A stretch of 64,000 bases of DNA from an uncultured bacterium. Lineage in GTDB: Bacteria > Spirochaetota > UBA4802 > UB4802. Within the stretch, counting starts at the first letter, position 1; every line of letters begins with the position of its first letter. The stretch covers positions 28,436 through 92,435 of the forward strand of contig CALEUQ010000018.1 of NCBI GenBank assembly GCA_937920495.1, written 5' to 3'. The position numbers were made by a program, and so were the translations under genes. The notes beneath the pieces are model-generated. The model did not search any database. It saw nothing but the letters and a program-made list of their open reading frames with translations, and had not been told where the DNA came from. Below, in pieces: positions 55,212 to 58,507 of the stretch.

Positions 55212-56528
55212 ATGAAAGAAGTAACTATTGGTGTAGTATGTTTTGCCCGCAAAACATTTGATTTCAATGCAGCCAGAGATATCTATAGTTCCATTACATC
55301 ACAGTTAAAAAAGATTAAAGCAGTGCAATGGCATTACTATGATGAACTGGTATTTGAAGTAGAAGATGCACATAAAGCCATTAGTTTTTTAAAAAATAAA
55401 GATATCGATGCGTTAGTATGTATCAGTGGAACATTTCATTTAGGACATTTAGCATTAGAAGTAGTAAAACATATTCACGTTCCTGTTATGCTGTGGGGGT
55501 TACCAGAATTGCCGTATGATGGCGGAAAAATACGGCTCAATTCAATTTGTGGTGTAAATTTAGATGCTAGCAATTTATACAAGGCTGGTATACGTAATTA
55601 CTATGCACATTTTGGTAATTCTATAGATACTGACTGGATTGGTGCTGTACGGATTATTTCAATGCTTAAAAATGCCCGAATTGGTCTGGTGGGGTATCAT
55701 GCACATGGTTTTTTTAATCTTGATACATGGCATCCTGCACTATATTCAAAATTTGGTACTATGATAGAACATTATGAGCTACAGCACTTATTCAATTATA
55801 CTGTAAATACACAGTATAGCAGTGACTATGCTGATATAATAGATAGTAATTTTGATACTGGTGAAATCAATGCAGCACAAAAACAAAAAGTTATTGAATT
55901 AAGTTCCCGCCTAAAAGGATTCATGGAAGACAATAACCTTACAGCACTTGCTATTCGATGCTGGCCGGAATTTGCGGCTGAATTTGGTATAGCGCCATGT
56001 GCAGCAATGTCGCTGGTACAGGCTGATAATTTTGTCATTGCCTGTGAGGGCGACGTTGATGGAGCAGTTTCTATGTTAGCGCATAAAGCCTTAGGTGCAC
56101 ACACACCATTTTTATTTGATTTTTCGCAGGTAAATCTGGAAGAAAATTTTGCACTGCTGTGGCATTGTGGTGTTGCCCCGTATTCTCTCAAAGATACTGC
56201 AAGCACAGCGTCGCTTGACACATATTTTGCTGCAGGGAAAGGTGTTACTGCAGGTTTTGTGTTAAAACCTGGCGATGTATCAATTTGCAGATTTGACTTT
56301 GATGGCAGTAACTATCGCATACTGTTACTAAAAGCGCATGGAGTAACCATGGATAAATTATTAAAAGGAACTTTCCTTAAAGTTACGTTTGATGTGCCTC
56401 TACGTAAAGTTCTTGATACTATTATCTATAATGGTATCGCGCATCACGCATCAATGGTATATGGTGATTACATTAAACCGCTTCAGATAGCAGCCAGAAT
56501 ACAAAACTGGGAGGTTGTCACATGCTGA
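55212..56528 (+). CDS. L-fucose/L-arabinose isomerase-like protein, candidate sulfoquinovose isomerase
   Basis: L-fucose isomerase-like fold features; located between SQ-type transporter and GH31 sulfoquinovosidase. Confidence 0.7.
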   Translation: MKEVTIGVVCFARKTFDFNAARDIYSSITSQLKKIKAVQWHYYDELVFEVEDAHKAISFLKNKDIDALVCISGTFHLGHLALEVVKHIHVPVMLWGLPELPYDGGKIRLNSICGVNLDASNLYKAGIRNYYAHFGNSIDTDWIGAVRIISMLKNARIGLVGYHAHGFFNLDTWHPALYSKFGTMIEHYELQHLFNYTVNTQYSSDYADIIDSNFDTGEINAAQKQKVIELSSRLKGFMEDNNLTALAIRCWPEFAAEFGIAPCAAMSLVQADNFVIACEGDVDGAVSMLAHKALGAHTPFLFDFSQVNLEENFALLWHCGVAPYSLKDTASTASLDTYFAAGKGVTAGFVLKPGDVSICRFDFDGSNYRILLLKAHGVTMDKLLKGTFLKVTFDVPLRKVLDTIIYNGIAHHASMVYGDYIKPLQIAARIQNWEVVTC

Positions 56529-58507
56529 AGATAGAACATACTGAAAATTCTTTTTCATTATACTATAAAAACCGCTGTATAGTACAGCATTCAGTATCAA
56601 AGCCATGCATAGCAGTGGGTGTTGGTACTGCAACATACAAAATGAAAGAAGGTAACTTTACAATAAAAGATACGATTACATCACAACAGTATTTGAAAAA
56701 TTTTTCTATTAAGCAAGAACATACTACAATAACAATACATCTGGAAGATGCTATACAATTAACAATAACAGCAGGTGAATATTGTACTATTGGCATTAAA
56801 GCGCATAAACCGTTTAACAGGTTCTGGCTGAGGTGTGTTGCTGACAGTGATGAACATATTTATGGATGCGGTGAACAGTTTTCAAAATTAGATTTAAAGA
56901 AAAAGAAAGTTCCCCTGTGGGTGCGTGAACAGGGAGTAGGGCGTGGACATGATCTTATAACTTTTTTTGCAAATGTATTGTATGGTGCAGGGGGAGCATG
57001 GCATACAACGTATTATCCGCAACCAACGTTTGTATCAAGCTCACATTATTTTGTGCATTGTAATGCATCATCGTATGCGGAATTTACATTTAGAAAGAAA
57101 GAACATATATTGCATTTCTTTCAGATTCCTGATTCAGTAGTGTTTGGTGTGTATGAAAAAGCAACTGACTGTATTAAAGCAGTGGGTGATTTGTTGGGGC
57201 GACAGCATCGACTGCCACAGTGGGTACACGATGGTATGTGGATAGGAGTTCAAGGCGGCACCGATGTTGTGAAGAAGAAATTACAGGATGCGCTTGATGC
57301 GGGTGTAAAGGTTTCGGCGCTCTGGGTGCAGGATTGGGTTGGACGATGCATCACATGGTTTGGCAAACGTCTTTTCTGGAACTGGAAATATAACCGGGAT
57401 TTATATCCCAACCTGCCGTCATTTATTCAGGAACTATCGCACAAAAATATAAAATTTTTGGGTTATATAAACTGCTTTTTAAATACTGAAGGTGATTTAT
57501 ATAAAGAGGCAGCTGCAAAAGGATATCTTGTAAAAAAAAGAGATGATACAGTATATCATTTTGATACTACTGGAATCCAGGCAGGTATTCTTGATTTGAC
57601 CAATCCTGAAACCTGTAGATGGATTAAACAGGTTATTAAGGAAAATATGATTGGTATAGGGCTTGGTGGTTGGATGGCTGATTTTGGTGAATACCTTGAA
57701 ACTGATGTAAAACTTCATTCTGGCCAGTCAGCTGAGTTGTACCATAACAGATATGCTGCGGATTGGGCGCGTGTAAATTATGAAGCACTGCAGGAAGCAG
57801 GAAAGCTGGATGAAATAGTATTTTTTACAAGGGCAGGATACACCGCTACATCACAATATAGTACGCTCGTATGGGCGGGGGATCAGCTTGTCAACTGGAG
57901 TATGAATGATGGATTGGCTTCGGTAATACCTGCGGGTATTTCTTTGGGATTTTGCGGCGTTGGATATTTTCACTGTGATATTGGCGGATATACCACACTG
58001 GGCTGGATTAAGCGCAGCAAAGAGCTTTTCATGCGCTGGGCAGAGTTGAGTACTTTTACACCGGTTATGCGCACTCACGAAGGCAATCGTCCTGATGATA
58101 ACTGGCAATTTAATAGTGATCAAGAGACTCTGCAGCATCTGGCACGGATGACAAAAGTTCATGCCGCATTAAAGCCATATTTTGAACATTGTAAAGATGA
58201 ATACCATGCTGATGGTTTGCCGTTAATACGCCATCCGTATATTCATTATCCTGATGATACCACGCTTTATTCATTGAAGTATCAATATCTGCTTGGACCA
58301 GATCTGCTCGTAGCACCTGTATATAAACCACGAAGAAACAGGTGGAAGCTCTATCTGCCACAGGATGAATGGGTACATGTATGGACAGGAAAAGAATATA
58401 CTGCAGGGTGGGTTACGGTTCAGGCACCTTTAGGGCAACCACCTGTTTTTTACAGAAAAGGTTCAAAATTTACCAATATTTTTATGTACTTAAAAGAATT
58501 ATTGTAG
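56522..58507 (+). CDS. GH31 sulfoquinovosidase (YihQ-like)
   Basis: GWMADFGEYLETD nucleophile, WAGDQ acid/base, and Q..R..W / Y sulfonate-binding residues with the spacing of E. coli YihQ (Q288, R301, W304, D405, D472, Y508). Confidence 0.9.
   Translation: MLKIEHTENSFSLYYKNRCIVQHSVSKPCIAVGVGTATYKMKEGNFTIKDTITSQQYLKNFSIKQEHTTITIHLEDAIQLTITAGEYCTIGIKAHKPFNRFWLRCVADSDEHIYGCGEQFSKLDLKKKKVPLWVREQGVGRGHDLITFFANVLYGAGGAWHTTYYPQPTFVSSSHYFVHCNASSYAEFTFRKKEHILHFFQIPDSVVFGVYEKATDCIKAVGDLLGRQHRLPQWVHDGMWIGVQGGTDVVKKKLQDALDAGVKVSALWVQDWVGRCITWFGKRLFWNWKYNRDLYPNLPSFIQELSHKNIKFLGYINCFLNTEGDLYKEAAAKGYLVKKRDDTVYHFDTTGIQAGILDLTNPETCRWIKQVIKENMIGIGLGGWMADFGEYLETDVKLHSGQSAELYHNRYAADWARVNYEALQEAGKLDEIVFFTRAGYTATSQYSTLVWAGDQLVNWSMNDGLASVIPAGISLGFCGVGYFHCDIGGYTTLGWIKRSKELFMRWAELSTFTPVMRTHEGNRPDDNWQFNSDQETLQHLARMTKVHAALKPYFEHCKDEYHADGLPLIRHPYIHYPDDTTLYSLKYQYLLGPDLLVAPVYKPRRNRWKLYLPQDEWVHVWTGKEYTAGWVTVQAPLGQPPVFYRKGSKFTNIFMYLKELL

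Follow-up and report, generated by a model that had tools for sequence, protein, structure and literature searches.

A sulfo-transketolase operon with a sulfoquinovosidase in an uncultured spirochaete, and a candidate tungsten-type oxidoreductase for the last step

Which sugar does the GH31 glycoside hydrolase of this locus attack, and where does the sulfonated remainder of that sugar go? The locus lies in a 64,000-nucleotide stretch of contig CALEUQ010000018.1 from an uncultured member of the Spirochaetota (the window; the source genome comprises 3.02 Mb and is 94% complete), and the initial annotation had named the GH31 protein a sulfoquinovosidase (SQase), an enzyme that frees the plant sulfosugar sulfoquinovose (SQ) from its glycosides. 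Our analysis supports that identification and finds neither known ending of the sulfo-transketolase (sulfo-TK) pathway in the surrounding operon. On balance, we hold it probable that the system as a whole is a genuine SQase in a sulfo-TK operon of an anaerobic spirochaete, with a pathway that ends in an aldehyde:ferredoxin oxidoreductase (AOR) and a DASS transporter. Genomes, contigs, and loci are cited below by our own G, C, and L numbers, the window genome being G000.

56522..58507, + strand: GH31 sulfoquinovosidase of the YihQ family, Q262/Q288/R301/W304/Y508 type (alignment, profile, fold)

The open reading frame starts with ATG and encodes 661 residues. The spacing of signature residues first read from the translation is exact: counted from Q270, R283 lies at +13, W286 at +16, D387 at +117, D454 at +184, and Y490 at +220, and these six share alignment columns with Q288, R301, W304, D405, D472, and Y508 of Escherichia coli K-12 YihQ (NC_000913). 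In YihQ, D405 is the nucleophile and D472 the acid/base, while R301, W304, and Y508 form the sulfonate pocket. The catalytic pair is kept (D387 and D454), and the pocket set is complete (R283, W286, Y490, Q270, and Q244), with Q244 in the column of YihQ Q262, the seventh position of the SQase set. The protein scores 899 bits with the NCBIfam YihQ-type model NF007746/PRK10426, whose cut-off is 553, and solved SQases match at an E value of ~1e-210, compared to 4e-43 for the next GH31 enzymes; given this score and this gap, the signature is not a chance match.

Among roughly 100 aligned GH31 sequences, some of them near-duplicates, the seven signature positions read QQRWDDY in 82 sequences and QQQWDDY in 14. 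None of the four non-SQase controls (E. coli YicI and three spirochaete proteins) has the set, and Q288, R301, and Y508 are absent from all of them. R301 is not universal, since 14 YihQ-family sequences have Gln there (L007, L008, L029, L066, L069, L085, L067, L092, L093, and L097-L101), several of them from spirochaete SQ operons, with either a variant sulfonate pocket or an altered specificity; the window protein keeps Arg. On a contig binned as Candidatus Lokiarchaeota (L038:8857-10899), a YihQ-like GH31 has Gly in place of Q262 and Leu in place of Y508.

An AlphaFold model of the protein (mean pLDDT 83, low around residues 130-166 and 273-284) has SQase chains as its top 23 PDB structure matches, with TM scores of 0.93-0.96, followed by YicI-type enzymes at about 0.72. 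Because residues 273-284, part of the sulfonate loop, are modelled at low confidence, the placement of that loop rests on the sequence alignment. The solved SQases (YihQ of E. coli, BmSQase 8r56, and the enzymes of E. rectale, 6pnr, and A. tumefaciens, 5ohs) align over the full length at 40-47% identity in structural alignments and share the fold together with all catalytic and sulfonate-pocket residues; we see no difference of note, the Q288/Q262 type being that of YihQ. The sequence and its profile match, the modelled fold, and the neighbouring genes thus all agree with the earlier view that this is an SQase rather than a generic alpha-glucosidase; the enzyme is in itself ordinary. The GH31 family holds many specificities, but a related alpha-glucosidase or alpha-xylosidase is nearly excluded by the full set of signature residues, the profile score, the fold, and the operon, and a generic enzyme of either kind was rejected on the alignments, signature residues, and fold matches.

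What pathway the SQase feeds is indicated by its neighbours.

53763..55202, + strand: GPH-family sugar:cation symporter (PF13347, TIGR00792)
55212..56528, + strand: SQ isomerase, divergent SftI/SqvD subfamily (NCBIfam SftI, profile match, fold)
59840..61285, + strand: DASS (SLC13-type) anion transporter (PF00939, TIGR00785)
61342..62196, + strand: SqwG, N-terminal half of a split sulfofructose transketolase (PF00456)
62285..63229, + strand: SqwH, C-terminal half of the sulfofructose transketolase (PF02779/PF02780)
63304..63777, + strand: SqwI, RpiB-like 4-deoxy-4-sulfoerythrose isomerase (PF02502)

A sulfo-TK cluster is recognized by an SQ isomerase, a sulfofructose transketolase, and a sulfoerythrose isomerase in one cluster (PMC13372026), and all three occur at 55212-63777 of the window, the isomerase scoring under its NCBIfam cut-off (236 bits against 700) yet being a clear profile relative. 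Its subfamily matches canonical SftI/SqvD in a profile-profile comparison (100%, E 1e-64, 436 columns); it shows 47-58% identity to proteins of other SQase-bearing clusters and 23-30% to the canonical SftI/SqvD group, and the predicted model has the arabinose/fucose isomerase fold. SqwG is 51-55% identical to its homologues in named sulfo-TK clusters, compared to 48% for the housekeeping paralogue, part of a separate transketolase gene pair on contig C35. The sulfonate motif of SqwH has been given as RAFDR, where ordinary transketolases have RSFHR (PMC11659671). The window SqwH (R9, A36, A109, R167) has lost the phosphate-site His that ordinary transketolases carry; of the positions mapped, R9, A36, and R167 match the motif and Ala109 stands where Asp is expected. 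We dropped RAFDR as a strict criterion, since the order to which the window belongs has Ala at the Asp position. Very probably, then, this is a sulfo-TK operon of an uncultured spirochaete.

As in the sulfo-TK cluster of Clostridium sp. MSTE9 (SqvD, SqwGH, SqwI, SqwF, SqwE), the SQ isomerase, split transketolase, and RpiB-type isomerase are clustered with the SQase. Unlike that cluster, the window operon lacks SqwF, SqwE, and the SqvB mutarotase (DUF4867), has an isomerase of another subfamily and a transketolase with His changed to Ala rather than to Asp, and includes GPH import and DASS. A genome search for SqvB gave one sub-threshold match and none that was convincing. The contig ends 223 bases after SqwI, and SqwI is likewise the last operon gene in four same-genus genomes with longer contigs (G001, G003, G004, and G005), where unrelated genes come next. 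The SqwH match in G004 (L111/L121) carries one TAA stop, reflecting a sequencing error or a broken gene. Sulfo-type transketolases without SqwI, in genomes that also lack the AOR clade described below, occur in G015 (SftI and SqwGH; L156:2039-6507), where the His-to-Ala change was read, and in G025 (SqwGH; L157:9883-11636), and may represent a partial or different pathway.

How does such an operon dispose of sulfoacetaldehyde? Two fates are known in sulfo-TK, by SqwF and SqwE or by SqwD and SqwKL (PMC12890257), the latter being the sulfoacetate-forming variant (Chu et al. 2023, as cited in PMC12890257). Both endings are present in other clusters that we compared, spirochaete and other (L013, L066, and L080; L007, L071, and L085). 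In the window operon and its sister operons, all of these genes are absent; elsewhere in the window genome, the search returned only weak iron-dependent alcohol dehydrogenase and TauE-type matches for SqwF and SqwE, nothing for SqwK, and no SqwD or SqwL match of convincing strength. Sulfoacetaldehyde acetyltransferase (Xsc) was rejected as the final step: two thiamine pyrophosphate (TPP) enzymes score 327 and 209 bits where the cut-off is 676, and all 14 control genomes likewise have paralogues that match.

A candidate for the missing step is found through the relatives. In three genomes of one genus, from another family of the same order (G013, G018, and G023), an AOR gene lies directly upstream of DASS and SqwGH; SqwI comes next in G013, and the contigs of G018 and G023 end there. 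The window genome encodes an AOR (contig C2:35712-37526) with 53% identity to this operon AOR, compared to 30-34% for the other full-length AORs of the window genome, and the operon-type AORs form one clade, monophyletic at 100/100 support. Only 11 of 401 spirochaete genomes carry the clade, and eight of these are sulfo-TK carriers; conversely, all eight genomes with SqwGHI or its visible part have it (G000, G001, G003, G004, G005, G013, G018, and G023). The co-occurrence with sulfo-TK has a Fisher p of 3e-7 over 50 genomes of the order, uncorrected for relatedness. A wider search of the order added no carriers beyond the 11, and a metagenome scan for further AOR contexts gave two short, distant fragments only.

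The three remaining carriers are G006, G039, and G041. G006 (71% complete) has GPH, SftI, and GH31 on a contig fragment and its clade AOR next to thiL and thi4. G039 has a row of GntR regulator, AOR, DASS, and class III aminotransferase genes (L152:6420-11976), and the best solved relative of this aminotransferase is the taurine:2-oxoglutarate aminotransferase 6jix, at 309 bits (next, 268). Such an aminotransferase produces sulfoacetaldehyde, and the row suggests, by its gene content, a conversion of taurine to sulfoacetate. The only intermediate that the SQ and taurine contexts share is sulfoacetaldehyde, the proposed AOR substrate. DASS homologues adjoin the AOR in G013, G018, G023, and G039 and adjoin SqwK/SqwL in L029 and L085; we propose that DASS is a sulfoacetate exporter, the outward direction being one that we infer.

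The AOR itself, on contig C2 and in the operons of the relatives, has AFOR_N and AFOR_C domains, four cluster Cys, and the second-shell residues Thr243, Glu313, and His448, all in common with PfAOR (1aor) and its relatives, and is predicted to be a tungsten-type enzyme coupled to ferredoxin. Unlike PfAOR, it belongs to a clade of its own, has Tyr427 changed to His, and carries directly after the catalytic His448 a clade-invariant HxDxRP, absent from the other AORs compared, whose Arg is a candidate sulfonate ligand. The Tyr427-to-His change was set aside as a mark of sulfonate use; it is unspecific, being present also in 8 of 18 other spirochaete AORs compared. The AOR family does include an enzyme that acts on sulfonates, the aliphatic sulfonate ferredoxin oxidoreductase PfASOR/WOR5 of Pyrococcus furiosus (PMC12096430, PMC13328260). 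It binds sulfonates and has the same Tyr-to-His change (PMC12096430), but it is distant from the clade (198 bits, versus 393 for 1aor), has a WorS subunit, and cleaves the C-S bond, unlike the activity proposed here.

Reading activities and substrate flow from these genes, we infer the following route. GPH would import SQ glycosides, and GH31 would hydrolyse them, D387 acting as the nucleophile and D454 as the acid/base while R283, W286, and Y490 hold the sulfonate. The SftI-like isomerase would convert SQ to sulfofructose, from which SqwGH would pass C2 units to glyceraldehyde-3-phosphate in two rounds, SqwI acting as the isomerase in between, so that sulfoacetaldehyde is left. The tungsten-type AOR would oxidise this to sulfoacetate, reducing ferredoxin and replacing SqwF/SqwE or SqwD/SqwKL, and DASS would export the sulfoacetate. 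An ending by AOR and DASS export is the best-supported reading, and we lean towards it; we lean slightly towards the broader proposal that this is a third sulfo-TK ending, with a dedicated clade of tungsten-dependent sulfoacetaldehyde:ferredoxin oxidoreductases and a DASS sulfoacetate exporter serving SQ and, in a relative, taurine.

Several observations weigh against the AOR ending or qualify it. In the genus of the window, the AOR lies outside the operon, between DUF2889 and thiamine genes (G000 contig C2:35146-39208). In G039, the GntR regulator is similar to one linked to phosphonates, and phosphonoacetaldehyde accordingly stays among the candidate AOR substrates in that genome. The AOR of G041 has as neighbours an SDR, a TPP-decarboxylase-like (acetolactate-synthase-like TPP) enzyme, and a BASS transporter (L151:4195-10318), possibly a route from 2-oxo acid through aldehyde to acid. 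G015 and G025 have SqwGH without the clade AOR, and also without SqwI. The window genome encodes weak iron-dependent alcohol dehydrogenases and is only 94% complete. Finally, the same-genus genome G002 has no AOR of any kind and no MoaA.

G002 is also an instance of natural loss. Its locus retains ROK, GH31, and MBL-fold genes, while GPH, SftI, DASS, and SqwGHI are gone, and neither SqwH nor SqwI was found in the genome above paralogue level. From the row acyl-CoA ligase, DUF2889, AOR, thiL, thiE, thi4, thiM, and thiC, G002 lacks the AOR alone, which is most simply a loss, since the clade AOR of G006 also adjoins thiL and thi4. The five genomes of the genus that have an AOR also encode MoaA, and G002 has probably lost the whole molybdenum/tungsten cofactor. 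The loss fits a dependence of the pathway on an enzyme of this kind and does not single out the clade AOR. The GH31 of G002 has Gln at position 301, and its open reading frame (L127:2111-4450) has an in-frame, membrane-like stretch of ~118 residues upstream, a rearrangement or a mere open frame.

The alternative that survives best, though we consider it unlikely, is an isethionate-type sulfo-TK in which an iron-dependent alcohol dehydrogenase (C76 or C83) reduces sulfoacetaldehyde, DASS exports isethionate, and the AOR serves some other purpose. The isethionate variant is transcribed by other spirochaetes, the Sphaerochaetaceae of the rumen (PMC13219744), and the homologues on C76 and C83 are 25-37% identical to SqwF-type proteins; these matches are nevertheless weak and unlinked to the operon, the C83 genes adjoin a different AOR, and the closest SqwE-like exporter is a 23% match at most. 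This alternative also leaves unexplained the AOR-DASS-SqwGH linkage and the AOR and DASS genes beside a taurine-type aminotransferase.

A general role for the AOR in aldehyde detoxification seems to us quite unlikely; on that view, its adjacency to DASS-SqwGH in one genus and its co-distribution would arise from shared ancestry and chance. Detoxification is the role assigned to several characterised AORs (PMC13328260), the carriers are related, and the AOR of the window genus sits among thiamine genes; but two distinct operon contexts share DASS and a sulfoacetaldehyde intermediate, and the clade is narrow with a motif of its own. Those thiamine genes give the AOR of G000 a link to TPP, which may matter for the TPP-dependent transketolase.

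Very unlikely, in our judgement, is the known sulfoacetate variant with SqwD and SqwKL in the unassembled part of the genome. Such a gap is suggested by the 94% completeness, by the contig end 223 bases past SqwI, and by the DASS homologues that adjoin SqwK/SqwL elsewhere among spirochaetes (L029, L085). It is opposed by the four same-genus operons that stop at SqwI on longer contigs and by the failure to find SqwK or a convincing SqwD or SqwL in the window genome, the sister genomes not having been searched genome-wide. That variant shares its oxidative end with the AOR route, but it yields acyl-CoA and ATP, whereas the AOR would yield reduced ferredoxin.

If the AOR ending is correct, the pathway would deliver low-potential electrons on reduced ferredoxin, instead of consuming NADH (SqwF) or giving ATP directly (SqwD/KL), and SQ use would hinge on tungsten. 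Of the 92 clades of the AOR family, only 5 include a member whose role is defined (PMC13328260); one more would gain a physiological role, and the gene offers a testable basis for sulfoacetate production by uncultured spirochaetes. Our literature search, which covered few subscription papers, found none joining sulfoacetaldehyde with an aldehyde ferredoxin oxidoreductase, and because most such papers are omitted, the novelty of this ending is provisional.

The remaining features lie upstream of the operon and within it.

52423..53613, - strand: ROK-family transcriptional repressor, NagC/Mlc-like (PF00480), divergent from the operon
53641..53670, + strand: promoter-like site TTGACA-N18-TATTAT in the ROK/GPH gap (best scan score, 11/12)
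58761..59771, + strand: MBL-fold metallohydrolase (PF00753)

The gene order is the divergent ROK gene, then GPH, SftI-like isomerase, GH31, MBL-fold, DASS, SqwG, SqwH, and SqwI. The position and orientation of ROK are kept in the same-genus genomes G002-G005 and in L006. Promoter-type sites occurred in the scan at chance level, and 53641..53670 is a putative promoter. The GPH symporter is likely, from its relatives, to import SQ or sulfoquinovosyl glycerol; proteins with 42-49% identity adjoin SQase genes in L018, L064, and L084. The SftI-like gene runs 7 bases into GH31; 253 bases separate GH31 from the MBL-fold gene, and from there to SqwI the genes lie 56-88 bases apart. There is no sign of horizontal import, the G+C content of the operon (0.369) matching that of the genome (0.377). 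The MBL-fold gene, which our search did not find in other named SQase loci, has the same place in G001-G005, lying between GH31 and DASS across the genus, and it stays beside GH31 even in G002, where most pathway genes are gone.

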